Below are positions 14,893-46,284 of a stretch of 61,145 nucleotides of DNA, piece by piece. The translations under genes and the position numbers were made by a program. The DNA is from an uncultured Granulosicoccaceae bacterium (GTDB taxonomy: Bacteria; Pseudomonadota; Gammaproteobacteria; Granulosicoccales; Granulosicoccaceae). The notes under the pieces were generated by a model. The model was given only the letters and a program-made list of their open reading frames with translations, ran no database searches and was not told the DNA's origin. Where the stretch lies: the NCBI GenBank assembly GCA_938003855.1, contig CALKXD010000010.1, positions 1-61,145 of the forward strand, given 5' to 3'. Every line of letters begins with the position of its first letter. Position 1 is the first letter of the stretch.

Positions 14893-16680
14893 CTAGAAAA
14901 TTGCCGGTTCATCAACCGGATCACCGTGCGAGGTTTCCAGGAAGTCAAAGTCACAGCCGCTGTCTGCCTGCAGGATATGACGTGAAAACATCCAGCCGTA
15001 GCCGCGTTCATAGCGTGCTTTCGGTTGCTGCCAGTTATCACGACGACGCTGCAATTCGGCCTCGTCCACTTGCAGATCAATACTGCGCGCTGCAACGTCG
15101 ACCGCGATGATGTCACCTGTTTGCACCAGCGCCAGCGGACCACCGACATACGACTCCGGCGCCACGTGCAATATACATGCGCCGTAGCTGGTGCCACTCA
15201 TGCGCGCATCCGAAATACGCACCATGTCCCGCACACCCTGCTTCAACAATTTTTGCGGGATCGGTAACATACCCCACTCCGGCATACCCGGGCCACCCTT
15301 GGGACCAGCATTGCGCAACACCAGCACGGTATCGGCGGTGACATCGAGATCGGGGTCATCAATAGAAGCCTTCAGGTCTTCATAGCTGTCATAAACCAGT
15401 GCTGATCCCTTGTGCTTAAGCAATCTTTCCTCGCAGGCGGACGGCTTAATCACACAACCGTCCGGTGCCAGCGACCCTTTCAGTACCGCCAGTGCGCCCT
15501 CGGCATAAATCGGATTTTCGGTAGAGCGAATCACATCGTCATTATAGACCTCGGCACGCGCTACAACGTCACCCATGGTTTTACCGGACACGGTAATGCA
15601 GTCGGTGTGTAGCTCATCTTTGATTTGAGACAGCATCGCCGGCAGACCACCGGCATAGAAAAAATCTTCCATCAGGTATTCATCGCCGCTAGGCCTGACA
15701 TTGGCGATCACCGGTACACGCCGGCTTTTGAGTTCAAAGTCGTTAAGGCTTAAATCGACACCACTGCGTCGCGCCATGGCAATCAGATGAATGATTGCGT
15801 TAGTAGAACAGCCCATGGCCATTGCCGCCGACACGCCGTTTTCGTAGGCCTGGCGGGTGAGGATATCTGACGGTTTGAAATCATCCCATACCATCTCGAC
15901 AATACGCCGGCCGGACGCACTGCACATTCTGATGTGACCGGAATCTGCAGCGGGTATCGAGCTGGCACCGTTCAGGCACATCCCGATACTATCTGCGATA
16001 GACATCATGGTTGCTGCCGTGCCCATCGTCATGCAGGTTCCATAAGAGCGGGCAATACCGCCCATGACTTCGTTCCAGTCCTCGCGTTCGATTTCACCTG
16101 CGCGCAAATCATCCCAGTACTTCCATGAGTCCGAACCGGACCCCAGGGTTTTTCCACGCCAGTGACCGCGCAGCATCGGCCCGGCCGGAACATAGATAGC
16201 GGGGATATCCATGCTGATCGCCCCCATCAGCAGCGCAGGGGTGGTTTTATCACACCCGCCCATCAGTACTGCACCATCCACCGGATGGCTGCGCAGTAGT
16301 TCTTCGGTTTCCATCGCCAGAAAGTTTCGATACAACATAGCCGACGGTTTTACGATGGGTTCAGACAGGGATATGGCTGGCAGCTCGATGGGCAATCCAC
16401 CGGCCTGCAGAATGCCGCGTTTGATATCGTCGACCCGGTGCTTAAAGTGTGAATGGCACTGGTTGATGTCGGACCAGGTATTGACAATGGCTATCAGCGG
16501 TTTGCCGATCCAGTCTTCTTCAGCAAACCCGATTTGCATAAACCGCGAGCGATGACTCGACGAGCGCAAATCGTCCTCACCCAGCCAACGATAACTTCTC
16601 AGGTCTTTGGCAGTTTTTTTTCCACCGGCGGCAGCCGCCGATGTTGATTCTGCGTTTTTTGAAGTTTTGTCCTGCGTCAT
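14893..16680 (-). CDS. IlvD/Edd-family sugar-acid dehydratase
   Basis: 595 residues, preceded by a perfect GGAGGT site. The IlvD/Edd pattern is clear: NTWSDINQCHSHF near residue 68, VLMGGCDKTTPALLMGA (an Fe-S ligand Cys), SYGTCMTMGTAATMMS (second Cys), and the C-terminal DARMSGTSYGACILHVAPES. The DARMSG-S version with an RHLQ-like tail ending resembles L-arabinonate, D-xylonate and galactonate dehydratases more than the branched-chain enzyme IlvD. It should turn an aldonate into a 2-keto-3-deoxy acid using an Fe-S cluster and Mg. The first 25 residues are Ala/Lys-rich and atypical. The sugar-oxidising reductase and PfkB kinase upstream could serve the same route. Confidence 0.85.
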   Translation of the reverse strand: MTQDKTSKNAESTSAAAAGGKKTAKDLRSYRWLGEDDLRSSSHRSRFMQIGFAEEDWIGKPLIAIVNTWSDINQCHSHFKHRVDDIKRGILQAGGLPIELPAISLSEPIVKPSAMLYRNFLAMETEELLRSHPVDGAVLMGGCDKTTPALLMGAISMDIPAIYVPAGPMLRGHWRGKTLGSGSDSWKYWDDLRAGEIEREDWNEVMGGIARSYGTCMTMGTAATMMSIADSIGMCLNGASSIPAADSGHIRMCSASGRRIVEMVWDDFKPSDILTRQAYENGVSAAMAMGCSTNAIIHLIAMARRSGVDLSLNDFELKSRRVPVIANVRPSGDEYLMEDFFYAGGLPAMLSQIKDELHTDCITVSGKTMGDVVARAEVYNDDVIRSTENPIYAEGALAVLKGSLAPDGCVIKPSACEERLLKHKGSALVYDSYEDLKASIDDPDLDVTADTVLVLRNAGPKGGPGMPEWGMLPIPQKLLKQGVRDMVRISDARMSGTSYGACILHVAPESYVGGPLALVQTGDIIAVDVAARSIDLQVDEAELQRRRDNWQQPKARYERGYGWMFSRHILQADSGCDFDFLETSHGDPVDEPAIF

Positions 16681-16914
16681 ATCTGACCTCCGGTTAGCTA
16701 GGTTTGGCTGTGCTTATACTACCCGAAAGCCACCAGAGTATCCCGCCCGTCAAGGCAACGAAAGGAAGATACGGCACCGCGCCCGGACAGCCACTGCCGT
16801 TAGTCTGCGCCACTCACACGGCAGCGGCTGGCATTGGACAGACCCACTGCTATACCACTATGCTACTGGTCTCGAGTGCAAGCGCACTTATCTACCAATC
16901 AATGGAAACCGCAA

Positions 16915-17355
16915 ATGACCTGGCTTGTTTACCTCTCTGGTGAAATACATACTGATTGGCGGCTACAGATCGCCAAAGGCGCGGAGCACCACAACCTGCC
17001 CGTCTCGTTCTGCTCTGCCGTCACCGATCACGACGCCAGTGACGCCGCCGGTGATGTGCTGGGCGCAGAGACCAGCAATTTCTGGCGCGATCATAAGTCT
17101 TCTAAAGTCAACAGCATCAGAACCCGCAGCCTGATTGCAAAATGTGATATCGCGGTGGTGCGCTTCGGTGATAAATACAAGCAATGGAATGCCGCGTTCG
17201 ATGCCGGCCAGTTGGCCGCTCTCGACAAACCCTACATCACCTTGCACGATGAAGACATCATCCATCCACTGAAAGAAGTTGACGCCGCCGCGATGGGCTG
17301 GGCCAAAACGCCCGAGCAAGTCGTCGAAATTCTGCGGTATGTCACCACCGCATAA
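16915..17355 (+). CDS. YtoQ family protein
   Basis: 146 residues from the ATG at 16915. The sequence is a full match, by memory, to the YtoQ family: WLVYLSGEIHTDWR at the start, PVTDHxASD-type segment, FWRDHKSSKVNSIRTR, IAVVRFGDKYKQWNAAFDAG, and KEVDAAAMGWAKTPEQVVEILRYV at the end. The fold is expected to be like nucleoside 2-deoxyribosyltransferases, but no activity has been assigned as far as I know. An in-frame ATG at 16834 would add 27 residues unlike the family. It ends 17 bases from the convergent livF. Confidence 0.85.
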   Translation: MTWLVYLSGEIHTDWRLQIAKGAEHHNLPVSFCSAVTDHDASDAAGDVLGAETSNFWRDHKSSKVNSIRTRSLIAKCDIAVVRFGDKYKQWNAAFDAGQLAALDKPYITLHDEDIIHPLKEVDAAAMGWAKTPEQVVEILRYVTTA

Positions 17356-17372
17356 GCAGCCCTTTGCAACGG

Positions 17373-18074
17373 CTACACGGCAAGGTAGGTCGCCAGCACC
17401 TCGGGTTTACTGTCGAGTTCGGTGATCGAGCCGGAAAACCTCACACTGCCCTTTTCGATCACATAGGCCTGATCCGCCACCAGCCGGGCAAAATGCAAAT
17501 TCTGTTCGGAGAGCAGTATCGTCATTCCGCTCTCCTTGAGCTTGATTATTGTGTCCGCCATCTGCTCCACAATGCGGGGGGCTAAGCCTTCGGACGGCTC
17601 ATCAAGCAGGATTAACTGCGGATTGCCCATCAGGGTGCGAGCAATTGTCAGCATCTGCTGCTCGCCACCCGATAATTGCTTGCCCTGATTGTGTCGACGC
17701 TCAAGTAGATTAGGGAACAACTCAAACAACTGAGCCGGTGTCCAGGGCGGACGGGCGTCACGCGGTGGCTGCCGGCCAACTTCGAGATTTTCATCGACAG
17801 TGAGATCGGGAAAGACACGGCGATCCTCCGGCACGTAGCCCATACCCAACTGCGCGGTACGGTGACAGGGATAGCGCGTGATGTCCTCACCCTGAAACGT
17901 CACTTGCCCCGAGGTCACCGGCAGCAGGCCGATGACAGTTTTCATCGTAGTAGATTTACCAGCGCCGTTGCGCCCCAGTAACGCGACGACCTTACCTCGC
18001 TCGACCGTCAGACTGAGTTGATTGAGGATTCGCGCTTTGCCGTAGCCTGCATTGACCGAGTTGAGCTCAAGCAT
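17373..18074 (-). CDS. livF: Branched-chain-type ABC transporter ATPase LivF
   Basis: 233 residues from the ATG at 18074; an upstream in-frame start would only extend into livG. Walker A is GRNGAGKST, the Q loop region gives GMGYVPEDRRVFPDLTVDENL, the signature is LSGGEQQM and Walker B ILLDEPSEGLAP, all typical of LivF. It energises, with LivG, the permease encoded upstream. Its start overlaps the end of livG by 8 bases. It is the last gene of the 14-kb transport and catabolic block, so the transported compound is probably what that block degrades rather than leucine. Confidence 0.92.
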   Translation of the reverse strand: MLELNSVNAGYGKARILNQLSLTVERGKVVALLGRNGAGKSTTMKTVIGLLPVTSGQVTFQGEDITRYPCHRTAQLGMGYVPEDRRVFPDLTVDENLEVGRQPPRDARPPWTPAQLFELFPNLLERRHNQGKQLSGGEQQMLTIARTLMGNPQLILLDEPSEGLAPRIVEQMADTIIKLKESGMTILLSEQNLHFARLVADQAYVIEKGSVRFSGSITELDSKPEVLATYLAV

Positions 18075-18867
18075 GGTCAGAGCCCTCCGCTGCGAACATC
18101 GAACCACCGCCGAGATAGACATCCTGCACTTGCTTATCGTTGCGAATGGTATCGGCATCGCCCTGCGCGATAAGCTGACCACGATTCAATACCATGATCC
18201 GATCGGCGTGTCCGAATACCACATCCATATCGTGCTCGGTGAACAGCACCGACAATCCTCTCTCGGCGACAATGCCTGCGGTTAATTCCATCAATTCTGC
18301 GCGCTCACCGGGCGCCATCCCTGCGGTTGGCTCGTCCATCAGCAACAGCACCGGATCATGCGCCAGCGCGATGGCAAGCTCCAGTCGCTTTAGATCACCG
18401 TAGGCCAGAATGCCAGCGGATCTTTGCGCTTGTGATTGCATACCCACCAGCTCCAGCAGCGTTAAGGCCTCAGTGACGTAGAGGCGTGTCGCACGGCTGA
18501 ACAACGAAAACGTTTTTCGATGCCTGGCGATCAATGCCATCTGCACGTTTTCGGCTACGGTCATCGATGAATACGTAGCGGTAATTTGAAACGTTCTGCC
18601 AACTCCGCGTCGCCACACGCGACGCGGGTCCCAGCCGGTGATATTTTCGCCCATTAAGCTGACTGTGCCACGATCTGGTTTTAACTGACCGTTAAGCATG
18701 TTAAAGCACGTTGTTTTACCGGCACCGTTGGGGCCGATCAGCGCCAGCAACTCACTCTGCTGTACGGTGAAAGAGACATTATCAACCGCATCCACACCCC
18801 CGAACGATTTACACAGTGTGTCGACACGCAAAACTTCTGTAGTGGCCATGTTCACTTGCGCACTCAT
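18067..18867 (-). CDS. livG: Branched-chain-type ABC transporter ATPase LivG
   Basis: 266 residues. Walker A GPNGAGKTT, the LivG-specific GVGRTFQITATYSSMTVAENV segment, an LAYGDLKRLELA signature in place of LSGGQ (usual for LivG), Walker B LLLMDEPTAGMAPGE and the switch His in TEHDMDVVF. It pairs with LivF on the cytoplasmic face of the permease. It overlaps the fused permease gene upstream by 4 bases and livF downstream by 8, so the three are translationally coupled. Confidence 0.92.
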   Translation of the reverse strand: MSAQVNMATTEVLRVDTLCKSFGGVDAVDNVSFTVQQSELLALIGPNGAGKTTCFNMLNGQLKPDRGTVSLMGENITGWDPRRVWRRGVGRTFQITATYSSMTVAENVQMALIARHRKTFSLFSRATRLYVTEALTLLELVGMQSQAQRSAGILAYGDLKRLELAIALAHDPVLLLMDEPTAGMAPGERAELMELTAGIVAERGLSVLFTEHDMDVVFGHADRIMVLNRGQLIAQGDADTIRNDKQVQDVYLGGGSMFAAEGSDHA

Positions 18868-20726
18868 AATGACTCACGCCCTTTTGCTAAACCAAACCGG
18901 ATAGCAAGAGTATGGAAAAAACCGGCGATACCCTGTGGTGCCACCACCACCAGTACGATAATTATGGTACCTAGAATCGCGCGCCAGAAATCAAGTCTGG
19001 AGATCCAGTCCTCGAGTAAGCGGAACACACCGGCACCGACCAGCGGCCCGGCAAGCGTGTGTACACCGCCAAGCAGCACCATCACCAGCCCGTCAATGGA
19101 ACGGGGAATCGCCGCTTCATCGGGGAAAATACTGCCCTTGGAAAACACATAGATTGAGCCTGCGATGCCGGCAAATAAACCGGCCACAGCAAACCCGAAA
19201 TGACGATGCCGCAGTAAATGAATACCGATGGATTCAGTCCGTACTGATGAGTCCCGCCCGCCTCGCAGTACATAGCCAAACGGCGCGTGCGTTATTTTAC
19301 GCAGAATCAATACACCGCCGCCGCAAAGCACCAGTGTCAAATAATAAAAAACCGGTTTGCTACGCGCCCACTCCGAAGGCCAGATCCCGAGCATGCCATC
19401 ATCGCCGCCCGTCACATCGCCCCAGGAATAGGTGATCGACCAGATGATCTGCGCTGCAGCCAGTGTCAGCATCGCCAGATAGACGCCGGATAACCTTACA
19501 CAAAACCAACCGAACACCAATGCGCCGACCACCGCAGCAATCGGCCCGATCAGTAACGCCAGCTCCATTGATCCGCCCAGGTGGCGAAACACCAGCGCTG
19601 AGGCATAAGCGCCCAGCGCAAAATAGGCGGCATGCCCGAAAGACACCATACCGCTGTTGCCCATCAGAAAATGCAAACTCGCTGCAAACAAGGCAAAGAT
19701 GATGATATCCGTCGCCAGTACAATGCCGAAGTCATCGAGAACATACGGCACGGCTACCAATGCCGCGATCACCAGCAATCCGACCAGTTTGCCCGGCAAG
19801 CTCGCCTCGCGTAGTGGCATATCAATCTGATCACCGGCGTGCTGTATTGCATCGGGCTTACCGAGCAGCCCCCAGGGCCGGACGATCAACACGACAGCCA
19901 TCACCAGAAACGCCAGCACAATAGTGATTTGCGGCATTATTAAAATACCAAACGCGTTTAACTCACCGATCAGCACAGCGGCTAGAAATGCGCCGACAAT
20001 GCTGCCCATACCGCCGATCACCACCACCACGAATGCCTCGGCGATAATACTGAGATCCATCAGCAGATTGATTGATTCCCGCGGTACTTGCACCGCCCCT
20101 CCGAGCCCGGCCAGTGCCGATCCGAGAAAAAACACCGAGGTAAACAACCAGGCCTGGTTGACACCCAGTGCCGCCACCATATCGCGGTCCTGAGTGGCTG
20201 CCCTGACCAGCGTCCCCCAGCGGGTTTTATTTAACAAAAGCCACACTGAAATCAGTACCACCGGACCCAGTGCAATCAAGGCAAGATCATACTGCGGGAT
20301 AGGCTCATCAAAGATGCGCACCACGCCATTCAACCCGGGAGCACGTGAACCGAATTTATCTTCGCCGCCAAACAACGCAAAAATCGCGTCCTGCATCACC
20401 AGCACAATGCCAAAAGTAGCCACCAGCTGAAACAGTTCCGGCGCGTGATAGATACGCCGTAGAATAACCACCTCAACGATAACGCCGACAACGCCGACGA
20501 TCAGTGCAGCACAGATGACTGACCCCCAGAACGGCAGAATGCCGGTCGGCAACCATTCAATCAGGTGGTATGCGAGGTAGGCGCCAAGCATATAGAAACT
20601 GCCGTGCGCAAAATTGACAATACGGGTGACACCAAAAATAAGCGACAGGCCCGACGCCACCAGAAACAGAGAACTTGCGCTAGATAACCCAGTAAGAAAC
20701 TGTGCAAAGATAAACCCGGCGGTCAT
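18864..20726 (-). CDS. Fused LivH-LivM ABC transporter permease
   Basis: 620 residues, about the sum of LivH (near 290) and LivM (near 320). Residues 1-290 are LivH-like: GLSLIFGVTRIVNFAHGSFYMLGAYLAY and GLGGAVQVPRESIN, with a late VVVIGGMGSIVGAF. After a junction near residues 292-312 (RPWGLLGKPDAI and a short polar stretch), LivM-like sequence follows: LHFLMGNSGMVSFGHAAYFALGAYASAL and LAMLTLAAAQIIWSITY, ending VMVLLGGVHTLAGPLVGAG. Around 16-18 helices in all. The two halves would form the membrane pore in one chain. An AGGGT site precedes the ATG. Confidence 0.9.
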   Translation of the reverse strand: MTAGFIFAQFLTGLSSASSLFLVASGLSLIFGVTRIVNFAHGSFYMLGAYLAYHLIEWLPTGILPFWGSVICAALIVGVVGVIVEVVILRRIYHAPELFQLVATFGIVLVMQDAIFALFGGEDKFGSRAPGLNGVVRIFDEPIPQYDLALIALGPVVLISVWLLLNKTRWGTLVRAATQDRDMVAALGVNQAWLFTSVFFLGSALAGLGGAVQVPRESINLLMDLSIIAEAFVVVVIGGMGSIVGAFLAAVLIGELNAFGILIMPQITIVLAFLVMAVVLIVRPWGLLGKPDAIQHAGDQIDMPLREASLPGKLVGLLVIAALVAVPYVLDDFGIVLATDIIIFALFAASLHFLMGNSGMVSFGHAAYFALGAYASALVFRHLGGSMELALLIGPIAAVVGALVFGWFCVRLSGVYLAMLTLAAAQIIWSITYSWGDVTGGDDGMLGIWPSEWARSKPVFYYLTLVLCGGGVLILRKITHAPFGYVLRGGRDSSVRTESIGIHLLRHRHFGFAVAGLFAGIAGSIYVFSKGSIFPDEAAIPRSIDGLVMVLLGGVHTLAGPLVGAGVFRLLEDWISRLDFWRAILGTIIIVLVVVAPQGIAGFFHTLAIRFGLAKGRESL

Positions 20727-21156
20727 GCAAATACCCTAGTGTAGTGTTGCAGGCAAAAGACACCCGTGACCCGACAGATCAAAGTGCTTCACTTCTGTGG
20801 TAAAACTTCTGTAGATTGAGTTCAAATACTTTAAACTTTTTGTGCACCATAATCCGCCCCTTGGGTTTCCCCCCCCGTTGGCACCGCGATAACAATAAGC
20901 GCCTCACTCGAAACGCCCACCATCAGAACCGGCGATCAGTTCACACTTTGTAATTTCCTGCAACACATCGCAGGCCGTTAATCCTACCGTTTTCAGTCCT
21001 GACTTGTGTCGACTTAACACTTTTAACACACATACAGCGCCACCGACACGAAGTGTTGACCATGTCAACCAAAGATTCAGAGTCAATCTGTACACTGCAC
21101 CATTTCAGATAGCTCCGATCACAAATTGTGGTCCGTTGATCAGCGAGAACCCGCAG
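20727..21156. promoter_or_regulatory. Divergent intergenic region with palindrome GTTGAC-CAT-GTCAAC
   Basis: This 430-base stretch separates the minus-strand permease gene from the plus-strand repeat-protein gene. It holds a perfect 6-3-6 palindrome, GTTGACCATGTCAAC at 21055-21069, about 90 bases before the repeat-protein ATG; TTGACC within it could also be a -35 box, but I find no matching -10. A C-run (CCCCCCCC) lies near 20870. No other gene is seen; codons in frame before 21157 look non-coding. Confidence 0.35.
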
Positions 21157-21870
21157 ATGAATTATATTGACACATCCCATAGCGCAGAGGACCTCTATAA
21201 GCTTCTGTCGAGCGTAGTTTCCGAAAACAAAAAACAACACTGCAGCAGCACAAACTTTGGCACCGGGACAAACAGCGATCTGTTTGCGCAACTGCAACAG
21301 GTGCTCGTTTCCCTGACAAACTCACTGCAGTCCGATAAAGGACTAAATAGAGCAGCGTACAGTAACGCCGGTTACAACGACTCCGGCTACAACAACAGCG
21401 GCCACAGCAATGCACGACATGGCAGCAATGGCTACGGATCGGGTAACTCTAACCGCCCGGGCAATTGCTTTAGTGGCTGCCAGAACCACACAACCACCAG
21501 TAATTTTCAGTCCAATACCGCCGCTAACCGACAAAACTATAACCTCAGTGTCTCCTTGCAACTGAGCCTCGGTGAAACGGCACGCCAGGACTATAACTTC
21601 GGCGGCACCCTCAGCCTGAACATCGGTGAAAGCTATCGACCTGACTACAACCTCGGGAGTTACCAGAGTATTAATATCGGCGAGATCTACCGTCCGAATT
21701 ATAACCTCGGCAGTGGCCTGAGCATTGATATCGGCTCAAACGCCAGACCTAACTACAACCTTGGCAGTGATTTATCGATAAATATCGGCGACACCAGGCG
21801 CGTGACCGATTTTGGTTCGTTATTGAGTCTGAACTTCGGCAACTCCGGCAACCCGCATTTTTTCCACTAG
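21157..21870 (+). CDS. Unrecognised 18-residue-repeat protein
   Basis: 237 residues from the ATG at 21157 (GAGAAC 6-11 bases upstream; the frame is open further up but atypical). Three parts are visible. Residues 1-65 are a helical head (AEDLYKLLSSVVSENKK, DLFAQLQQVLVSLTNSLQ). Residues 68-105 are a Gly/Asn/Ser-rich linker with five-residue YN-SG repeats and a CFSGC pair. From residue 125 there are six 18-residue units of the form RP-YNLGS-LSINIGE--, probably a regular beta structure. There is no signal peptide or membrane segment. It is the only plus-strand gene inside the transport and catabolic block, between permease and binding protein. I do not recognise the family; a scaffold, adhesin-like or self-assembling protein are guesses. 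Confidence 0.6.
   Translation: MNYIDTSHSAEDLYKLLSSVVSENKKQHCSSTNFGTGTNSDLFAQLQQVLVSLTNSLQSDKGLNRAAYSNAGYNDSGYNNSGHSNARHGSNGYGSGNSNRPGNCFSGCQNHTTTSNFQSNTAANRQNYNLSVSLQLSLGETARQDYNFGGTLSLNIGESYRPDYNLGSYQSINIGEIYRPNYNLGSGLSIDIGSNARPNYNLGSDLSINIGDTRRVTDFGSLLSLNFGNSGNPHFFH
21529..21852 (+). repeat. Six in-frame 54-base coding repeats
   Basis: Units start at 21529, 21583, 21637, 21691, 21745 and 21799, exactly 54 bases apart. Each encodes 18 residues: Arg at position 1, a YN(L/F) core at 4-6 in the first five, Ser/Leu/Ile alternation at 9-14 and Gly at 15. DNA identity between units is moderate, with many third-base changes, so the protein pattern is under selection and the array is not recent. 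Confidence 0.85.
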
Positions 21871-21880
21871 TTTTCAGGTA

Positions 21881-21913
21881 ATGCACCGGCGGTACTTACA
21901 ACCGCCGGCGCTT
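21881..21913. terminator. Bidirectional terminator hairpin
   Basis: CCGGCGGT (21886-21893) pairs with ACCGCCGG (21901-21908) across a 7-base loop, and the stem continues with two more G-C pairs after one mismatch. It lies between convergent genes ending at 21870 and 21919. TTTT precedes it on the plus strand, which becomes a downstream A/T run for the minus-strand gene. Confidence 0.7.
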
Positions 21914-21918
21914 ACCAT

Positions 21919-23124
21919 TTACTGATCAGGACGCAACTTCAGGACTTCGTCGTCAGTGGGCTGAAAGTCGTTGCCGTCAGCATAAAACCAATCGACCATC
22001 TCGCCCTTGCCATCGACCACCGTCGTTTTGCCAACCCAGGTACCCATGGTCGATTGATGATCCTGTTTACGATAGATAAAATCACCAGACGGTGACGACA
22101 CCGACAGATTTTCCATGGTGTCGACCAGCGTTTCAGCATCATAAGCCGGCGCTTTTTCCAGCAGTGTGGCAATGGATGCGATCACGTTGTAGCCCACAAT
22201 AGACCCCAGCTTGGGGGCTTCATTCCACTTAGCCTCATAAGCGGCAAAAAACTTCTGATGTGCCGGATCGTCAATTGCACCCTGTGGATACCCTGTCACG
22301 ATCCAGCCTTCCGGCGCTTCATCTTTTAACGGCTCTAGATACTCGGGCTCACCGGATAGCAGGCTCACCACAGTGCGCCCTTCAAATAATCCACGCAAAT
22401 TGCCTTCGCGTACAAATTTGGCCAGATCACCGCCGAAGGTGACGTTGAAAATAGCTTCCGGTTTAGACGCTTCCAGTGCCCGCACTGTAGAACCTGCGTC
22501 AATTTTAAATACCGTAGGCCATTGCTCCTCTATAAATTCTGCGTCGGGCACCAGTTTCAACAACTCGCTTTTAAACGCCGCGACTGCATCTTTACCGTAG
22601 GCGTAGTTAGGTGCCACCGTAGCCCATTTTTTTGCGCCGGTTTTCTCAGCTTCTTTTGCCAGCATGGCCGCCTGCATGGTAGTCGATGGTCTCAGGCGGA
22701 AGGTGTAACGATTGCCACTCGACCACACAATTGCATCACTAAGTGGTTCGGCCGCCAGAAAAAAGGTTTTATTTTGTTTGGCGAAGTCGGTGACAGCGAG
22801 ACCGATGTTAGATAGAAAGGTCCCGGCTATCATCGTGACCTCGTCGCGGTTGACCAATTCTTCGGCAATTTTAACAGCATCCCCCGGTTTGCCGCCGTCA
22901 TCGCGCGCTATGATCTCAAGTTGCTTGCCTTTGATACCACCATTCGCGTTGACCTCTTCGACAGCGAGCTCCCAGCCTTTGCGATAGGGGTCGAGAAAGG
23001 CTGGCAACCGTGAATAGCTGTTAATTTCACCTACTTTAATCACGTCCGCGGCGTTTGCCGCCATAGACGCAATACCCGCCGCTGTCGCCAGTGCCACTGC
23101 TGCCACTGTTTGCGTAAATTTCAT
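21919..23124 (-). CDS. Periplasmic binding protein of the Liv-type ABC transporter
   Basis: 401 residues with a clear signal peptide (MKFTQTVAAVALATAAGIASMAANA, cut before ADVIK) and a GGGGGAG ribosome site. The mature protein is a type-I periplasmic-binding fold of the Leu/Ile/Val class: VIKVGEINSYSRLPAF, GWELAVEEVNANGGIKGKQLEII, DDGGKPGDAVKIAEELV and AGTFLSNIGLAV. Members of this class carry amino acids, amides, urea or aromatic acids. It is separated from its permease by the opposite-strand repeat gene and followed, upstream in transcription, by the Rieske oxygenase. The ligand is likely the substrate of the neighbouring enzymes. Confidence 0.9.
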   Translation of the reverse strand: MKFTQTVAAVALATAAGIASMAANAADVIKVGEINSYSRLPAFLDPYRKGWELAVEEVNANGGIKGKQLEIIARDDGGKPGDAVKIAEELVNRDEVTMIAGTFLSNIGLAVTDFAKQNKTFFLAAEPLSDAIVWSSGNRYTFRLRPSTTMQAAMLAKEAEKTGAKKWATVAPNYAYGKDAVAAFKSELLKLVPDAEFIEEQWPTVFKIDAGSTVRALEASKPEAIFNVTFGGDLAKFVREGNLRGLFEGRTVVSLLSGEPEYLEPLKDEAPEGWIVTGYPQGAIDDPAHQKFFAAYEAKWNEAPKLGSIVGYNVIASIATLLEKAPAYDAETLVDTMENLSVSSPSGDFIYRKQDHQSTMGTWVGKTTVVDGKGEMVDWFYADGNDFQPTDDEVLKLRPDQ

Positions 23125-23194
23125 ATTTTATCTCCCCCGTAGTCGTCCGGAATCGGACAACAGAAAATGTCTGCAGCCGGCAGGCGATCAGTGC

Positions 23195-24223
23195 CTAACC
23201 GTGCAGCAGGTGTTCTATGCGCTTTCTATATTCGTTCGGACCTTTGTCAATTGCAAGTCGAAGCGGCACCGGACCCGGGTTATCTGACTCTGCAATGCGC
23301 GTTTCCTGCTGCTGAATGGCTTCGAGAATGACTTTGTCTTCGTCAAAGGCAATGCGGAACAATTCATTCATGCGGTCACCGATGCTGGCATCGTCGATGG
23401 CGCGATTGCGTATATGCATCCAGCGGTCAATGGTGTGAGTGGCATTCACCGGCGTTAAAAAATGCAGCGCAAATATTCGCATGCCCTGCTCACGATCAGC
23501 CTCGGCAATTGCCAGTGACGCATCAGCACTGCCAAAATCGATAACGGCCGTGCTGGGCATATGCAGGTAATAATAGTGCCAGCGGTCAACGTGGCCTTTA
23601 AAACCGCCAAGCTGCTTGAAAAAACCCACCGGCGGGGCATCTCGAATCCAGCGCCAGGCGGTTATCTGTTCGCTGTCAGTGTTGACATGCACGGGTACAT
23701 CTTCGCTTTGCGCATTGCCGAGCGTCGTCGGGTGCACAAAGCTGACGTGCGCCGGGTCGACCAGGTTTTCGGCGACATTGAGATAGTTGCTTTCTATATG
23801 CAGCGCATCCCCCTGGTGAGCCTGCCAGTTGCTGTCATTAAATTGCGGTAAATCAAACACAGTATCGGTGTCGGCCAGGGCAGCGTCGCCCATCCAGACC
23901 CAGACAATATTATGTTGTTCAAACACCGGATAGGTATCGACGCACTGGCGTTTCGGGATTATCTCCTGCCCTGGAACCCTGACACAGTGGCCGGTCGCGT
24001 TGAACACCGTACCATGGTAACCGCACTGTATTGTGTCGCCCTCGACCCGTCCCATCGACAGCGGCAGAAGCTTGTGCGGGCACAGATCACGCAGGGCGCA
24101 GACACTGCCGTCAGTCAGCCGATACATGACCAACTCAGTTTCCAGCAGCGTGACCTTGAGCGGCTGGTCAGTAAACTCACTGGACCAGCCAGCCACATAC
24201 CAGGCATTTTCCACGTATTTCAT
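23195..24223 (-). CDS. Rieske non-haem iron oxygenase, VanA-like
   Basis: 342 residues. The Rieske 2Fe-2S ligands are Cys48-x-His50 and Cys67-x2-His70 (LCPHKLL and CGYHG). The mononuclear iron site follows at ENLVDPAHVSFVH, with His159 and His164 and a bridging Asp156. Length and the KYVENAWYVAGW start match the single-chain alpha-only group that includes vanillate O-demethylase oxygenase and related demethylases or hydroxylases. It needs a separate reductase, which is not encoded in the window. Placed between the binding protein and the DUF1185 pair, it probably hydroxylates or demethylates the imported compound. The exact substrate is open. Confidence 0.88.
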   Translation of the reverse strand: MKYVENAWYVAGWSSEFTDQPLKVTLLETELVMYRLTDGSVCALRDLCPHKLLPLSMGRVEGDTIQCGYHGTVFNATGHCVRVPGQEIIPKRQCVDTYPVFEQHNIVWVWMGDAALADTDTVFDLPQFNDSNWQAHQGDALHIESNYLNVAENLVDPAHVSFVHPTTLGNAQSEDVPVHVNTDSEQITAWRWIRDAPPVGFFKQLGGFKGHVDRWHYYYLHMPSTAVIDFGSADASLAIAEADREQGMRIFALHFLTPVNATHTIDRWMHIRNRAIDDASIGDRMNELFRIAFDEDKVILEAIQQQETRIAESDNPGPVPLRLAIDKGPNEYRKRIEHLLHG

Positions 24224-24425
24224 CAGTCTCTACTCGCCAATGATTTAATCATCCTGTGCATCGCAACCCCCGCAGGCATTGATCACCGGCTGAGCCGGCG
24301 TAACGCCCGTGCGACGCTCCAACAACCGGGGTGTCCAGTCTATTTGTGCCGTTATAACCGTAGTCGCTATACGACATCAGTCGCACCTGACGTCAGTCCC
24401 TGCCAGCCCCTTGTAACCCGAAGCA

Positions 24426-25004
24426 TCAGCGCAATCCATCATTACCTACAGCGTCGGCTGATTCCAGCCCGCCAACCCTTGGCAGCGGCCTGCCGGAATC
24501 AGTCACCGCAACAGCCACCAGTATTTCGTTAGCTCGCGGCGCATCCGTCAGACGTACTTCGATACCGTCAAAATGGCTGCGTACATAAGCGGCATCTTTA
24601 TGACCGAGCGGTACATCAAGTGTCTGTCCGCAGCCGCCCATTTTTTTTCCCGACGGCACCAATGCCGCGCCCTTTTCTACGGCGGCTCTCAGTGGCGCGC
24701 CGAGCGCAGGGTGCAGTATTGCGGCGGCATGCTCTAACTCACCGTTGCTGCCAACCATCGCAGCTTTGCCATAGCTTTCTATCTCCGCCGGCGACACGCC
24801 CAACGCTGCAACAGCCTTTTCACCAAGCAATTTGCCGAGCGCTGCACCGGTGTCTATCAACGCGGAGAGGTCCTCCTGATAGACGCCGGCAAACGGATTT
24901 TCTATCACCGCCACCGCTACCGCCTTACGCGTCGCCGGAGTGATTGATTTTTCCATCTCACGGTGGGTATCTTCAACCTGAGTGACTATCTTGCGAATAC
25001 GCAT
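24426..25004 (-). CDS. Amino acid synthesis (DUF1185) family protein, copy 2
   Basis: 192 residues of the family called 'amino acid synthesis protein' (PF06684/DUF1185), whose activity has not been established as far as I know. Family marks: RKIVTQVEDTHREMEK, AVIENPFAGVYQEDLS, YGKAAMVGSNGELEHAAA, LVPSGKKMGGCGQTLDVPLGH and YVRSHFDGIEVR-TDAPRANE. Its ATG follows the stop of copy 1 with no base between. Compared with copy 1 it lacks the residue spacer before ITPATR and has a GGCGQ insertion-like segment with two Cys-adjacent Gly, so the two have diverged well. They may form a heteromer. Confidence 0.85.
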   Translation of the reverse strand: MRIRKIVTQVEDTHREMEKSITPATRKAVAVAVIENPFAGVYQEDLSALIDTGAALGKLLGEKAVAALGVSPAEIESYGKAAMVGSNGELEHAAAILHPALGAPLRAAVEKGAALVPSGKKMGGCGQTLDVPLGHKDAAYVRSHFDGIEVRLTDAPRANEILVAVAVTDSGRPLPRVGGLESADAVGNDGLR

Positions 25005-25589
25005 TTATCGCAGCCCGTCTTCACCAACAATGGCATCGGCTTCCAGCCCACCGGCACGGTTATGCACCCTGGCTCCGGTCGACATCACCAGCGCCAACAC
25101 TATTTCACTGGCTCGCGGTGCGTCATTAATACCCACTTCCATCGCATCGAAGTGTGACCGCACATAGGAGGCATTGGTGTGAGTCATGGGGATATCGAGA
25201 CGGGTGCCCGGCGCGCCCACTTTTTTTGTCGACGGTACAATTGCCATGCTGTCTTTGATCAGTTCACGCATTGAATAGCCACCCGGCACATGCCAGAGCG
25301 CACCATGCTCGACTTCTCCTGCTTCGCCGACAATTGCCCCCTTGCCGTAACCCTGAATGGTGTCAGGATCACCACCGAGCGCATCGATGAGTTTCTGTGC
25401 CATCTGCACACCCAGAGGTTTGAGGTCTTCCATGAAGCCGGCAATGTCTTCTTCGTAGCGCCCTGCATACGGATTGGCGATTACCGCAAGGCAAGAAGCT
25501 TTGCGCAAGGGAGTGTCGGCAACAGGCCCACCTTCGTGCCAGGTCTCTTCAACAGAGACAATCATCTTTCTAATTATTACGTCAGGCAC
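25005..25589 (-). CDS. Amino acid synthesis (DUF1185) family protein, copy 1
   Basis: 194 residues, same family as the gene that follows it: RKMIVSVEETWHEGG, AVIANPYAGRYEEDIA, YGKGAIVGEAGEVEHGALWH, IVPSTKKVGAPGTRLDIPMTH and YVRSHFDAMEVGINDAPRASE. Strongly conserved His, Ser, Lys and Asp residues suggest an enzyme rather than a structural protein. The name is historical and should not be read as evidence for amino acid synthesis. Within this block, where ring hydroxylation and reduction enzymes are present but no classic ring-opening hydrolase, a hydrolytic or isomerising step by this pair is a reasonable guess, no more. Confidence 0.87.
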   Translation of the reverse strand: MPDVIIRKMIVSVEETWHEGGPVADTPLRKASCLAVIANPYAGRYEEDIAGFMEDLKPLGVQMAQKLIDALGGDPDTIQGYGKGAIVGEAGEVEHGALWHVPGGYSMRELIKDSMAIVPSTKKVGAPGTRLDIPMTHTNASYVRSHFDAMEVGINDAPRASEIVLALVMSTGARVHNRAGGLEADAIVGEDGLR

Positions 25590-25619
25590 TGTGTTTTCCC
25601 CCGGGTGGTTTGACCCGCG

Positions 25620-26477
25620 TTACTGAATAGGCAGATAGCGGTAAGCCCGGCTGTCTGTAGTTTTATGATAATCGCGCAGAGACAAATGTGCATCCACTAT
25701 ATGGCCATCGTGTTTCATTTGCTCCGCGACCGCCAGACCAGCGTTAAGCGCCGCTTTAATCTGCGCTTCAGACAGAGGCCCGACGGCGACGGTCACCTCC
25801 CGGTCGCCCAGATCACTGTCTGCGTCAAGCTCGCGTGCCTGACAACGCTCAATGGCTGCACAATCCGGCAGTGTCACGGCATTGGCGATCAGTGTGGCAG
25901 CAGCATCGGCAGTGGCCGCATTGGCGGCCAGCACGGTCACCGCATCGGCAATGCCCAGACTCAGACTGCGCCCGTGACAACCACTGGTGGCGATACCCCC
26001 GACACCATCATCGGGTGTGAGCCGGATGGTGGCTGCCAGCTTTCCCGACAACGGGTTGGCCACTACACCGATATCAGTGTGCTGCTGCGGCCCGAGATAA
26101 ATGGCTATATCGCCGCCATTGTTGACCAGCACCCGGGGTAATAACAGATCCCGCCTGAGACTTTGCAGCACTTCATCAGCGACCGCACCGGCAACCGCGA
26201 TCATCGGGGTCGTAAAATAGCGCGGAAACCGTGCAGTTGCCGTTTGCATACGCAGCGCGACTGTCCCGTGCAGCGATACCTGACTTCCAGCGGGCTGCCG
26301 CAGCGATGGTAATTCGGCAACCAACTCGGTCAGCACCGTCGCAAACCGGTCCACTGCCTGCTGGTAGGCCTGCTGTACAGCATCAGCACTGGCGCTGACT
26401 TCTATGATCAAATCAATAGGACCGTGCTGCAGGTGCAACCGCCGTCCATCGTTGATCAAGGCGGCCACAGCACTCAT
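25620..26477 (-). CDS. UPF0280 family protein (ApbE-like fold)
   Basis: 285 residues matching UPF0280: a start of HGPIDLIIEVSA, then RYFTTPMIAVAGAVADEVLQ, VLVNNGGDIAIYL, GGIATSGCHGRSLSLGIADAVTVLA and ATLIANAVTLPD. The VNNGGDIA and ATSG..GRS..LGIADAVTV motifs are shared with ApbE, the FAD-dependent flavin transferase, to which the family is distantly related. A covalent-flavin or cofactor role for the neighbouring redox enzymes is possible, though whether UPF0280 proteins bind flavin is not settled. It lies 22 bases behind the Fe-S reductase and 30 before the DUF1185 pair in the same operon. Confidence 0.85.
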   Translation of the reverse strand: MSAVAALINDGRRLHLQHGPIDLIIEVSASADAVQQAYQQAVDRFATVLTELVAELPSLRQPAGSQVSLHGTVALRMQTATARFPRYFTTPMIAVAGAVADEVLQSLRRDLLLPRVLVNNGGDIAIYLGPQQHTDIGVVANPLSGKLAATIRLTPDDGVGGIATSGCHGRSLSLGIADAVTVLAANAATADAAATLIANAVTLPDCAAIERCQARELDADSDLGDREVTVAVGPLSEAQIKAALNAGLAVAEQMKHDGHIVDAHLSLRDYHKTTDSRAYRYLPIQ

Positions 26478-26499
26478 CTTTGCATTGGCCGCAGAACTT

Positions 26500-28041
26500 T
26501 CAGGGCCACGAAAAATTATGCGTATCAGTCGGCCAGGGGTTTTCTTCTGCGCTGATCAATTGCTCGCTGCCGGCAAGTACATGATCATTCTGTGATCCGA
26601 GCCTGCCCGCCAGTACATCGTCAAGAGAGCTGACATAGTCCGCGTGACCGCCGAGCGCGATATAGTCGGTATAGCGCATGGTAAACTCCACGGGGGCGAC
26701 CAGCGCCGGGGTTGGCACATAACCAAATGAGCCAGCCGGCATACGCATGACATCGACCATTATCGTAATGCCACCGCCGGGCCAGACATAGACCGGCGCC
26801 CCGCCAGCGGTGACATGCGTCAGCATCTGCTTGACCGAGCGTGTAAGCTGCACCGGGTTTTCGGTAACCCCGGCGCGCAAGGAGCCGCCCGCCCCGCCCA
26901 TAAACAACACGGTGCACAGCGCGGGTTCGCAATTCTCGGCAATACGCTCAACCGATTGCTGCAGGCTTGCCGGTAACGGTTTGGCGACCGGTTGCAGATT
27001 GCTGTCGAGTTCAAAGTAGGCAAATTGCTCACCGGTGGTCGACACCATCAGCAGTGTCATGCCGGCGCGCGCATTTTTTTTGTTGAAAGCACCGAGTATA
27101 GTAAGAGGATCTGAGATATTGGTTCCGCCCCATCCGGTACCGGGTTCGGCGACCTGGAAGTATCGACCGGGTGTTGATTTGCGCCCCAGAACCTTAATCC
27201 CGGTTGGCTGCCAGTCGATCACCTTGCCGGCCTGATGCTCTGACACCACACCGGTTATATGATCATCAACCACAACGACTTCATCGACCAGGCCCTTCCA
27301 CTGCGAGGCAAACATGCCAATGGTGGCCGAGCCACACCCGACACGCATCTTTTCCTCGCGCACACCACTGACAATCGGCGCGCAACCGGCTTGCACCACA
27401 ACCGACAAACCGTCATCGATCTCCAGCTCTACCGCCTCACGGTTGCACAGCTTGAGCATGGTGTCACAAGTGACACGCCCTTCCTTTTTTGAACCGCCGG
27501 TCAGATGATGCACGCCGCCAAGCGACAGCATTTGCGAGCCGTACTCCCCGGTTGTGACATGTCCGACCGCCTCCCCCTGAGCACGCACCGGGCTTTGCTC
27601 CGGTCCCAGATGCCGATCGGTATCTATTTTTACTTTGACACCACAGTAGCTATAGATACCTTCTGTCACTACCGTCACCATATCGACCCCGGCGACTTCC
27701 TGCGAGACAATAAACGGCGCAGGCTTGTAGTCCGGGTAGGTGGTGCCAGCGCCCAGTGCCGTGACAAACATCTGCTTCGATGCCACTACATTGCCGTCCC
27801 ACCTGTCACTGTTGCCACTGTCGGTGTTTTCGGACGGTGCGAATGGCACAACCGCACCACCATCAGCAATCGCCCGGGTGATGACCCGGTGTGGATCAAG
27901 ACGCACCAGTGCGCCGGCCGTGTTAGCGTACCGGTCGCAGGCGCCTGACTTGCCGTCGGCGATGTAACACATCACCGGGCAGGCATCGCAGCGTATTTTC
28001 CCGGCATTTTTATCGCCGGCACGAGCGTTGTTGTCAGTCAC
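26500..28041 (-). CDS. 6-Hydroxynicotinate reductase-like Fe-S protein
   Basis: 513 residues from a GTG with a strong AGGAGAGGA site. The N-terminus has CDACPVMCYIADGKSGACD: Cys18, Cys21, Cys25 and Cys35, a likely 4Fe-4S site. The rest matches what I remember as the 6-hydroxynicotinate reductase (Hnr) group of Eubacterium barkeri and proteobacterial homologues: VTEGIYSYCGVKVKIDTD, VGHVTTGEYGSQMLSLGG, CNREAVELEIDDG, RVGCGSATIGMF and YVWPGGGITIMVDV. Hnr reduces a hydroxylated pyridine ring with ferredoxin. Many proteobacterial homologues carry that name by similarity only. The molybdenum hydroxylase directly upstream would be the natural partner that hydroxylates the ring first. Confidence 0.75.
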   Translation of the reverse strand: MTDNNARAGDKNAGKIRCDACPVMCYIADGKSGACDRYANTAGALVRLDPHRVITRAIADGGAVVPFAPSENTDSGNSDRWDGNVVASKQMFVTALGAGTTYPDYKPAPFIVSQEVAGVDMVTVVTEGIYSYCGVKVKIDTDRHLGPEQSPVRAQGEAVGHVTTGEYGSQMLSLGGVHHLTGGSKKEGRVTCDTMLKLCNREAVELEIDDGLSVVVQAGCAPIVSGVREEKMRVGCGSATIGMFASQWKGLVDEVVVVDDHITGVVSEHQAGKVIDWQPTGIKVLGRKSTPGRYFQVAEPGTGWGGTNISDPLTILGAFNKKNARAGMTLLMVSTTGEQFAYFELDSNLQPVAKPLPASLQQSVERIAENCEPALCTVLFMGGAGGSLRAGVTENPVQLTRSVKQMLTHVTAGGAPVYVWPGGGITIMVDVMRMPAGSFGYVPTPALVAPVEFTMRYTDYIALGGHADYVSSLDDVLAGRLGSQNDHVLAGSEQLISAEENPWPTDTHNFSWP

Positions 28042-28137
28042 TTATGTCCTCTCCTGGTCACGTGGTCTTACCACGCAATACCCTGCTGAAAATCTATAAC
28101 GACGGCGTTGCTATTAAATCCGGGTAACACGCAACGG

Positions 28138-30897
28138 CTACGACAACTGCCGAAGCGCCGCGAGTACCTTATCCGGTGTGGCGGGAAGATGATTAACCTC
28201 GGCACCGGTGGCATCGCGAATCGCGTTTAAAATTGCCGGCGCGGTCGGGATCAGTACGTGCTCCCCCAGCCCTTTGGCACCATAGGGGCCCACCGCATCA
28301 GCGACCTCTACAATGTGATGTTCAAACGATGGTATATCACCTATGGTGGGAATCAGGTAGTCGTGCAGATTCTCTGCAACCCCCGGGACAAAATCTTCCA
28401 TCAACGCCATCCCGATCCCCTGCGTCGCACCTCCCTCGATCTGCCCTTCGACCAGCTGCGGGTTTATCGCTATGCCCACATCATGTGCGGTGGTTAATCG
28501 ATCCAGCTTGACCGTACCAAGCTCAACATCTACGGTGAGTTCGATCAATTGCGCTCCGTAGCCGTACTGGGCATAGGGACTGCCTTGTCCATTGGCATCA
28601 AGCTCAGTGGTGGGCGGGTTGTATTGCTCTACGGCACAAAACACATAGCCTTCGCTGTCAGCCGGCCGGTCGGTCAGCGTTAGCACATGTGTCTGGTCGG
28701 CGTCCTTAATGGTTATCGTGCCAGCGGACATAACTACTACGGAGCGGTCCGAGGCATTGACTTCGCGCAGAATCAACTGCCGCAGCGATCGCGCCGCCAG
28801 CAGTGCTGCGTTACCACTGACAAAGGTCTGTCTCGACGCCGATGTTTTACCGGCATCGGGTGTCACTGCCGTATCAGCATCGACCAGTCGCAACTCAGAA
28901 AGTGCTACTCCCAACGTATCTGCCGCAATCTGCGCGACCACCGTATTAGCCCCCTGACCAATATCTATAGCCCCTTGATGCAGCACCACCTGCCCCTGCT
29001 GGTTGACGGCTATCTTGATGGTTGACGGATTCGGTAACGACGTGTTTCCACATCCGTACCAGCAAGTCGCTACGCCGCGGCCTTTGCGATAGCGGGTACT
29101 GTTTTCATTAAACACAGCGCACCGTTCACCTGCCGCAACCCACGCTTCCTGCAGCGTACTGAGGCATGCCTTGATGCCTACGCCCGAGGCAAATATCTGC
29201 CCGGTCACGGTAGGCTGATGATTATCGAGCGCGTTGTTCAAACGAAACTGCAATCGATCTATACCCGCATCATCGGCGAGTCTGTCGAGCAGTGATTCCA
29301 GCGCGATGGCGGCCTGCGGCACACCAAAGCCCCGAAACGCGCCCGCCGGCGCGGTATGAGTATGCACCGCCGTTGAACGAGCGCGATAGTTGGGAATATA
29401 AAATGGACCGGATGCATGGATCGGCACACGGTTCGCGACGGTCGGCCCCCAACTCGCATACGCACCGGTGTTGAAAATACCGTTGAAGTCGATGGCGGTC
29501 AGTTTGCCGTTGGCATCGCAGGCAATGTGCAGATCAATCTGAGACGGGTGGCGCTTGGTGGTTGACTGCATAGACTCACGGCGACTGTAGACAGCGGCCA
29601 CCGGCAGGCCAAGTTTCAACGCAGCCAGACACAGATAAGGCTGCAGGGACAGATCGAGCTTCGAACCGAAGCCACCACCAACAGAGGTCGGTCGCACGCG
29701 GATATTTTCTTCCGGCATACCAAGTATGCCGGCAAGTTCTTCACGGGTCATCCCTGCAGTCTGTGTGCAGGTATGGATTTCTATAGTATCGTCGACGACA
29801 ACCGCACAGCCTGCTTCAGGCTCGATATAGGCATGCTCGATAAACGGCGTGCTAAAGCTTCCACGGCGGGAAAAGCGCGATTGTTGCAGACCGGATTCTA
29901 TATCTCCGCGTTGCACCAGCCCACGTACCAGAACGTTGTCCGGTCGCCCGGCATGCACCGGCATAGCGCCATCGAGCAGCGCCTGATCCGGCAGCAGGTG
30001 TGGATCCAGCACTGTCCACTGCACCGGGAATGTCTCTGCATCGAGGCGTGCGATTGCCTCTGCGCTGCCAACAACCGCGGCAATCGCCTCACCACGAAAC
30101 CGGGCACGCTGCTCTGCGAACACCGGTTGATCGGCAAACGGCGGAATAACCCCGAATCGATTTTCCCCGGGGATGTCAACGCTGGTCAGGACCAGATCTA
30201 GCCCGTGGTCCGTCAGCCACTGACCGGTATCGCCAATGATAAAGTCAGCACAATGGTGCGGACTTCTGATTACCGCCAGGCGCAACGCATCCGTGGGGAT
30301 AACATCAGCGCCAAACTGATCGCGCCCGTTAACCTTGGCAACACCATCAAGCCGTTGCACCCGCGCGCCAATAGCGGCTCCCGATGGCGGGCTGCCCGGC
30401 ACATCGCGAAGCGACGCTGTATTTACCACCGCATCTATAATTTTCCGGTAACCGGTACACCGGCACAACACACCGCCGAGAGCATCTTCTACTTGTTGGG
30501 CATCGGGGGTCGGGTTGTGCCGCAACAAATGCGTAGCAGCCATCAGCATCCCCGGAGTACAAATACCGCACTGCGCCGCACCGTGCTGTAAAAAAGACTG
30601 TTGCAGCGCATTGAGGTTTTCACCATCCTCACCGGGCCCTGCAAGACCCTCGACGGTCTCGACCACACTGCCTTCCAGCTGGCCAATTGCCACCAGACAA
30701 CTGCAGGCAGGCTCACCATCGATCAGTACCGTACAGGCACCACAATCACCGGCATCGCAACCCACCTTAGTGCCAGTCAGCCCTTGCTTGCGCAGTACCT
30801 CTGACAAGCGCTGCAAGGGCATTTCATCACTATGTATCGCGCGCCCATTGACACTGAAACCTATGCCATTGATAAGCTCGCCCGGTGCATCGCTCAT
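28138..30897 (-). CDS. Molybdenum hydroxylase, fused 2Fe-2S and Mo-binding chain
   Basis: 919 residues. Residues 1-165 are the small subunit with two 2Fe-2S clusters: VGCDAGDCGACTVLIDGEPAC and QCGICTPGMLM with GVLCRCTGY. From about 175 on it is the molybdopterin subunit: RLDGVAKVNGRDQFGADV, VGGGFGSKLDL, APAGAFRGFGVPQAA, GQGANTVVAQIAADTLG and PYGAKGLGEHVLIPTAPA, with the active-site Glu in GLGE. In xanthine dehydrogenase relatives these parts are often separate. The FAD chain is encoded upstream with a 4-base overlap. It inserts a hydroxyl from water next to a ring nitrogen or aldehyde; nicotinate-, purine- or other N-heterocycle dehydrogenase are all possible. Confidence 0.88.
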   Translation of the reverse strand: MSDAPGELINGIGFSVNGRAIHSDEMPLQRLSEVLRKQGLTGTKVGCDAGDCGACTVLIDGEPACSCLVAIGQLEGSVVETVEGLAGPGEDGENLNALQQSFLQHGAAQCGICTPGMLMAATHLLRHNPTPDAQQVEDALGGVLCRCTGYRKIIDAVVNTASLRDVPGSPPSGAAIGARVQRLDGVAKVNGRDQFGADVIPTDALRLAVIRSPHHCADFIIGDTGQWLTDHGLDLVLTSVDIPGENRFGVIPPFADQPVFAEQRARFRGEAIAAVVGSAEAIARLDAETFPVQWTVLDPHLLPDQALLDGAMPVHAGRPDNVLVRGLVQRGDIESGLQQSRFSRRGSFSTPFIEHAYIEPEAGCAVVVDDTIEIHTCTQTAGMTREELAGILGMPEENIRVRPTSVGGGFGSKLDLSLQPYLCLAALKLGLPVAAVYSRRESMQSTTKRHPSQIDLHIACDANGKLTAIDFNGIFNTGAYASWGPTVANRVPIHASGPFYIPNYRARSTAVHTHTAPAGAFRGFGVPQAAIALESLLDRLADDAGIDRLQFRLNNALDNHQPTVTGQIFASGVGIKACLSTLQEAWVAAGERCAVFNENSTRYRKGRGVATCWYGCGNTSLPNPSTIKIAVNQQGQVVLHQGAIDIGQGANTVVAQIAADTLGVALSELRLVDADTAVTPDAGKTSASRQTFVSGNAALLAARSLRQLILREVNASDRSVVVMSAGTITIKDADQTHVLTLTDRPADSEGYVFCAVEQYNPPTTELDANGQGSPYAQYGYGAQLIELTVDVELGTVKLDRLTTAHDVGIAINPQLVEGQIEGGATQGIGMALMEDFVPGVAENLHDYLIPTIGDIPSFEHHIVEVADAVGPYGAKGLGEHVLIPTAPAILNAIRDATGAEVNHLPATPDKVLAALRQLS

Positions 30898-31760
30898 GTT
30901 GTTGCCCCCGCTGTCTTGGCCGCAACGACCGCATCTGCCACGGTCCGCCGCAGCAACTGCAAGGCCGCCTCCTGACGGTACCCGGCCGGGGCGCGTATAT
31001 CATCAATAGGCTGCAATGCAGCCAGATGCTGCGCCTGCAGCAGTTGCTCTACGCCCGTCTCTGCCTGCTGACCCTGCAATGATGTTTCAGCCGTGGTCAG
31101 CCGCGTTGCGACCTCGGAACAGGACCCCACGGCTATGGAGATTGACTCGATACGGTTATCGTTGCTCAGTACCAGGCGAACGGCCACCATCGCAATTGAT
31201 ATCACCAGATAGCGACGCGCACCGAGCTTGCGAAAAGCGCTGCTGCCAGTGCTGGCAGCACGCGGGATGACGATCGCGCTGAGTAGTTCATCTTCGGCAA
31301 GCTGTGTCCGGCGATTGCCCAGAATATAGTCGCCAAGCGGCAGTTGTCGGGTACCCCGATGCGACATGAGCTCGACCTGCGCGTCGAGACACAGCAACGG
31401 TGGCACCCCGTCTGCCGCCGGTGATGCATTACATAAGTTGCCCGCCACCGTTGCACGGTTCTGAATCTGTACCGAGCCCACCTCAACAGCGGCCAGCTTC
31501 AAGGCATCAAAGGCTGCTGGCAGCCCGGCCCGGACCACGTCAGTCCAGGTTGCCAGTGCACCAATACGGACGCCATCCGGGGTTGTAGCTACCTTGCCAA
31601 GGTCAGACAGTGCGGTGATATCGAGCACGGGTGTTGAGGGGCGCTGCCCCTGTAGTGCGGGGTAGAAGTCAGTACCGCCAGCTAATATTGTCCAGCGATT
31701 GTTACGCAGTAAATCAAGCGCAGCCCCCAGTTGCAACGGTCTGACATAGCTCAATGGCAT
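30894..31760 (-). CDS. Molybdenum hydroxylase FAD-binding chain
   Basis: 288 residues of the CoxM/XdhB type. FAD-contact segments: ILAGGTDFYPALQG near residue 25 and ATVAGNLCNASPAADGVPPLLCLDA near residue 105, followed by DELLSAIVIPRAAS and the C-terminal CoxM-like domain (GARRYLVISIAMVAVRLVL). It takes electrons from the 2Fe-2S clusters of the fused partner and passes them to NAD or another acceptor. Its TGA overlaps the partner's ATG. It is the first gene of the minus-strand block, so the block's main promoter should lie in the 86 bases between 31760 and the dbpA end. Confidence 0.9.
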   Translation of the reverse strand: MPLSYVRPLQLGAALDLLRNNRWTILAGGTDFYPALQGQRPSTPVLDITALSDLGKVATTPDGVRIGALATWTDVVRAGLPAAFDALKLAAVEVGSVQIQNRATVAGNLCNASPAADGVPPLLCLDAQVELMSHRGTRQLPLGDYILGNRRTQLAEDELLSAIVIPRAASTGSSAFRKLGARRYLVISIAMVAVRLVLSNDNRIESISIAVGSCSEVATRLTTAETSLQGQQAETGVEQLLQAQHLAALQPIDDIRAPAGYRQEAALQLLRRTVADAVVAAKTAGATT

Positions 31761-46016: not shown

Positions 46017-46284
46017 ACACTTGCCCGGCAACCCGTCTGCGGCCTAAATTAGTGCCTATCCGGAAACAGGGCGTCGCGAGGATCATTCAGGTGCGTGAGA
46101 TTTTGCCTGCCACATGGAGGCGCTTAGTTGTTCTTAAGTAACTACCTGTGGTCGGTAAAAGATTGCGTGCCTGAGTGGTACGCAGTAGCGCTTGTTTCTG
46201 GATGGGCACTAATTAGCCCCTGAACGTACCCATTAATTAACACGCAATTTCATCCACAAACCAGAGAACAGACAGCGGAACAAC

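Follow-up and report, generated by a model that had tools for sequence, protein, structure and literature searches.

Genes and features at the locus

The window (the whole 61,145-nucleotide stretch of DNA analysed here, from an uncultured Granulosicoccaceae bacterium) contains a plus-strand reading frame for 237 residues, complete with its stop codon, that is flanked on either side by minus-strand genes for the permease and the substrate-binding protein of a branched-chain-type importer (Table 1). This arrangement, a plus-strand gene within a minus-strand importer locus, had been described in a sequence-only reading of the same DNA and was confirmed. The fused permease adjoins a probable catabolic operon (14893–31760) with molybdenum hydroxylase, Rieske oxygenase, and AA_synth-type proteins; within this operon, a 513-aa protein (26500–28041) is without a Pfam or NCBIfam match.

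If the operon is interrupted by the 237-aa gene, the permease promoter must be within the divergent intergenic region, in which no consensus sigma-70 site was found. Upstream of the start, the sequence reads GCGAGAACCCGCAGATG in the window and GCGAGACCCATGATG in the single relative described below (AB1), with GCGAGA near the ATG common to both. At its other end, the gene is convergent with that for the substrate-binding protein, and the hairpin between them is likely a transcription barrier; given this hairpin between convergent genes, the two would not be co-transcribed. AB1 also has a strong hairpin at the equivalent place between both stops, unrelated to that of the window.

At 46044–46216 the window carries a MITE-like element, about 170 bp long, whose inverted ends are of the type TAATTAGTGCCCATCC. 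In AB1 (L009 8612–8751), a further copy lies directly upstream of the homologous gene, and a single end of the element was seen at L036 110–126.

Table 1. Features of the importer locus and of the 237-aa gene, in window coordinates
Feature	Position	Strand	Remarks
Fused branched-chain-type permease (BPD_transp_2, two stretches, 620 aa), flanking gene	18864..20726	-	
Divergent intergenic region, 430 bp, permease start (-) to 237-aa gene (+)	20727..21156	.	
Probable ribosome-binding region	21140..21156	+	GCGAGA just before ATG, both species
Orphan gene, 237 aa (P0001)	21157..21870	+	Repeats; AB1 orthologue at same locus, dN/dS about 0.23
N-terminal head, residues about 1–59, two predicted helices	21157..21333	+	Low-confidence models
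Asn/Gly/Ser-rich linker, residues about 60–126	21334..21534	+	N-x-S-G-Y type pentapeptides; CFSGC (C104, C108)
Repeat units 1–5, residues 128–216	21538..21804	+	Starts Y128, Y146, Y164, Y182, Y200; consensus YNLGSxLSINIGExxRPx
Sixth unit, divergent C-terminal cap TDFGSLLSLNFGNSGNPHFFH	21805..21867	+	Starts T217, 17 from unit 5; 61% identical to AB1 cap
GC-rich hairpin between convergent genes, without T run	21876..21917	.	-26.1 kcal/mol, z -6.5
Importer substrate-binding protein (Peripla_BP_6), flanking gene	21919..23124	-	

Architecture of the encoded protein

Two helices are predicted in the N-terminal head, at residues 7–26 and 40–58, with one Cys (C29) between them; the same two helices appear in the low-confidence models of both the window and AB1 proteins, and the NSDL..QL of the head is conserved between the two. 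The linker of the AB1 protein holds a Cys pair too (C66, C68), giving three Cys in each protein. The helical head (at low model confidence) and the Gly/Asn/Ser linker, with its pentapeptides and CxxxC pair, had both been proposed from the sequence and were recovered here. The same reading had reported neither signal peptide nor membrane segment; judged by eye, none is visible in the 237-aa protein or in the upstream-extended frame, and neither MNYIDTSHSAEDLYKLL nor the extended frame has a hydrophobic signal core.

The periodicity of the C-terminal part is pronounced, with 44 identities at lag 18 across residues 121–237, whereas the highest count at any lag among 5000 shuffled sequences was 22. 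Six repeat units of exactly 18 residues had been claimed. The number of units held, but their exact length did not: successive starts are spaced 18, 18, 18, 18, and 17 residues apart, and the sixth, a divergent unit, forms the cap. Within the 12-residue core YNLGSxLSINIG, positions 1, 3, 7, 9, and 11 are hydrophobic in 28 of 30 instances, against 2 of 36 for the even positions. Each unit contains two phi-N-phi-G half-motifs in both species, with spacings of 8 and 10 residues for the window protein and 7 and 10 for that of AB1, where the unit is 17 rather than 18 residues long. Such pairs, together with the strict alternation, could be the pattern of a two-stranded solenoid coil. The alternation from which a stacked beta structure had earlier been deduced is thus present and is consistent with stacking, for which the AlphaFold support is of low confidence.

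The AB1 relative and selection on the frame

The sole clear relative was found in “Chromatiales bacterium (ex Bugula neritina AB1)” (MDLA01000109.1). It encodes 260 aa, shares 40% identity with the window protein, is built from 17-residue units, and occupies the same operon slot in the same orientation. Asking whether homologues sit beside the same transporter, a check that had been proposed beforehand, therefore gave one positive from the one homologue found.

Comparison of the two genes gave a saturated dS of about 2.8 and a dN of 0.65 (dN/dS about 0.23), whereas dN for the neighbouring genes was 0.04–0.12. For the repeats alone, dN was 0.43 and dN/dS was 0.14. The frame is free of stops in both carriers, the C-terminal end matches, and the start context is similar. 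Because the frame has been kept, with dN/dS at about 0.23 despite saturated synonymous sites, it reads as a real coding gene under purifying selection that evolves much faster than its neighbours. Conservation, the absence of which had been named as a reason to doubt translation of the frame, is seen in the AB1 orthologue. Protein-level selection had previously been argued from third-base divergence between the units; selection is upheld by the orthologue, but the within-array argument is weak, as differences at codon positions 1, 2, and 3 number 146, 134, and 162, in a comparison blurred by the off-by-one sixth unit.

Internal units are more alike within a species than across the two (neighbouring AB1 units are up to 89% identical), and one across-species pair of internal units, w2-a4, stands at 61%. 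Judged from these identities, homogenisation of the array has probably proceeded independently in the two lineages, with the array end kept. Homogenisation within species combined with an orthologous cap suits a stacking array.

Distribution and origin

Profile searches did not find the gene in 12 other genomes of the genus. Five of these 12 (G002, G006, G007, G008, and G013) have the same importer, with the permease and substrate-binding genes adjacent and the slot empty. In the window the two genes are separated by 1192 bp and in AB1 by about 1320 bp, against less than about 200 bp in the five relatives. As the slot is empty in these five, the gene is not a regular part of the importer. The importer proteins of the two carriers are 89–94% identical to each other and 57–60% identical to the rest. 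Profile searches of sampled genomes of the class (about 370) and phylum (about 400) detected no further member, and neither did tblastn against phages and plasmids or a scan of viral contigs. Most simply, the gene came into, or originated within, an operon that was still intact in the ancestor of the two closely related carriers; loss from the other genus members is a less simple alternative.

A number of weak matches were set aside on inspection. These comprised a chance frame over DNA tandem repeats (G170), a frame antisense to a coiled-coil TolA-like gene (G028), a PKD-type protease tail (G729), and two frames with internal stops (G015 and G049). A toxin-coregulated pilin matched the head only (E 0.1), and xylanases matched at E about 1.

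Comparison with known families and folds

Searches of Pfam, NCBIfam, PHROGs, and PADLOC returned no family above cut-off, and in Pfam neither the 237-aa protein (up to E 10) nor the AB1 protein had a match. Searching the literature for repeat families with 18-residue units yielded nothing relevant. These results agree with the earlier statement that no named family with this pattern was known, and the gene is a bacterial gene previously unnamed.

The 18-residue turn of the RTX beta-roll equals the window unit in length, but neither its GGxGxD calcium motif nor GGxGxDxLx nonapeptides were found in the 237-aa protein. NSVAIG-type repeats of a YadA-like head were likewise not found, nor was there a Pfam match, including to the YadA anchor. 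The triple-stranded spikes of VgrG and T4 gp5 came into consideration through a weak match to the NVGxxQSxNVG spike of an other-family VgrG (G056), which was read and set aside: the repeat period there is much shorter, VgrG domains are missing here, and the resemblance is most likely convergence.

With curli CsgA, the protein shares short tandem repeats, each of two strand-forming halves, with alternating inward hydrophobic residues and Asn. The curli unit is, however, about 23 residues long, as against 17–18 here; the Q-x10-Q kernel and N-x5-Q-x-G are missing from the repeats; the Sec signal is missing; and the helical head and Cys have no curli counterpart. Curlin repeats consist of N-x-phi-x-phi-x-Q halves with the Q-x10-Q kernel. 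A published motif description of curlin repeats, with expressions that extract them (PMC10192328), was applied; none of the expressions occurs in the repeats, and one chance Q-x10-Q falls in the helical head. No csg genes, including CsgG, lie beside the gene at this locus. Since those expressions are absent from the repeats, Pfam curlin is unmatched, and a Sec signal is not visible, the protein is on sequence grounds not a curlin; as no Sec signal was seen by eye, curli-type export is not expected. Pseudomonas FapC, a functional amyloid with imperfect repeats and linkers, appeared in the Foldseek list (9u4u), but its E value of 7.3 is not significant, no sequence match was found, and no fap operon lies beside the gene.

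AlphaFold was run on a two-sequence alignment of the window protein and its AB1 relative, and the resulting models were of low confidence (pLDDT 30.7 and 37.9, respectively). In the low-confidence AB1 model, strands are regularly spaced across residues 144–250. The first Foldseek match was the E. coli CsgA fibril, at an E value of 2.3 that is not significant and with a low-confidence query model. When these matches were re-examined, CsgA had Z 9.4 and rmsd 2.1 over 89 residues, and other solenoids reached Z 8–9 at rmsd values above 3. The CsgA match is a hint of the fold and neither proof nor evidence of kinship; because other solenoids reach Z 8–9, it may mean merely “beta-solenoid.” At such model confidence, the missing of further folds in the structural search proves nothing.

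Possible functions

We tentatively favour, at somewhat under an even chance, a self-stacking structural protein composed of a head, a linker, and a two-stranded beta-solenoid array, acting much as curli or Fap subunits do but without curlin sequence. A young, fast-evolving gene would here encode a modular structural protein, whose N-terminal helical head provides oligomerisation or anchoring and whose flexible linker serves as a spacer. The C-terminal array would fold as a two-stranded beta-solenoid, with one coil per 17- or 18-residue unit; each coil would pair two strand-turn halves of the phi-N-phi-G type, and ladders of Asn and of hydrophobic residues would be stacked along the axis. Through their exposed ends, molecules could then stack into rods or fibres, as curli or Fap subunits do, and a surface or matrix role may be supposed along with this fold.

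Equally solenoidal, but monomeric or oligomeric through its head alone, the protein might instead be a binding rod (adhesin-like or ligand-binding) and not a fibre. The divergent cap unit kept in both species could block end-to-end stacking, the helical head of the low-confidence models suits oligomerisation, and soluble solenoids score almost as high as CsgA; no ligand-binding or anchoring domain was found, however, and a signal peptide for the surface is absent, so that such a rod is possible but rather unlikely. That the product remains in the cytoplasm as a structural or low-complexity assembly protein, an Asn/Ser/Gly-rich internal scaffold or storage body with a Cys pair, would agree with the three Cys of both proteins, with the Sec signal and membrane segment not being seen, and with there being no adjoining exporter gene. 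It is nevertheless unlikely, as, apart from the importer operon, which relatives possess without the gene, the neighbourhood offers no cargo, shell, or enzyme partner. The binding rod and the internal assembly protein are both serious rivals of the stacking reading. A partner or regulator of that importer would explain the identical slot in both carriers, but is improbable, given that the five genus members have adjacent importer genes and no such gene and that the gene is convergent with the substrate-binding gene across a hairpin and not co-transcribed with it; because related operons are without the gene, an integral importer role is unlikely. Finally, although just two species carry the gene and no known family includes it, a frame left open by chance, or repeat DNA that does not code, is scarcely credible when, at saturated dS, both species lack stops, share the start context and C-terminal end, and show the low dN/dS values given above for the whole gene and for the repeats.

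In its composition and in the head pattern NSDL..QL...L.SL...LQ, the protein recalls harpins, as a lead only, and a harpin-like substrate of type III secretion (with a small helical head, rich in Gly/Ser/Asn, and without a Sec signal) came under consideration when type III-like secretin pieces were found at first look. The pieces form an isolated three-gene cassette, and no FHIPEP protein, hence neither SctV nor FlhA, was found in the window genome, which is 98% complete; control genomes and AB1 matched in the same FHIPEP search. The harpin reading was accordingly dropped as very improbable. The cassette itself encodes, besides a secretin and a TPR protein, a small protein with a match to the N-domain of the type III secretin model, that is, a split secretin, and lies at L034 15533–18532 (G000:C132) in the window genome, despite the missing FHIPEP, and at L036 12601–15521 (G012:C88) in AB1. 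Its co-occurrence with the 237-aa gene is uninformative because the two carriers are close relatives with much shared by descent. AB1, whose genome is listed with 6% contamination, has two FHIPEP proteins (G012:C147 22955–24931 and G012:C123 1477–3429) and may possess a type III system as well as a flagellum.

Returning to the stacking solenoid, the broader proposition of a new functional-amyloid-like beta-solenoid family, with a double phi-N-phi-G kernel of 17–18 residues in place of the N/Q kernel of curlin, an N-terminal helical head, a Sec-independent route, and an origin within one genus, must be regarded as doubtful. If the fold is true, a stacking beta-solenoid would have been born within one genus, with a kernel unlike that of curli or Fap. 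Orthologous arrays with units of 18 versus 17 residues throughout and the same cap would then make homogenisation directly testable, and the minimal requirements of a stacking unit would become testable as well.
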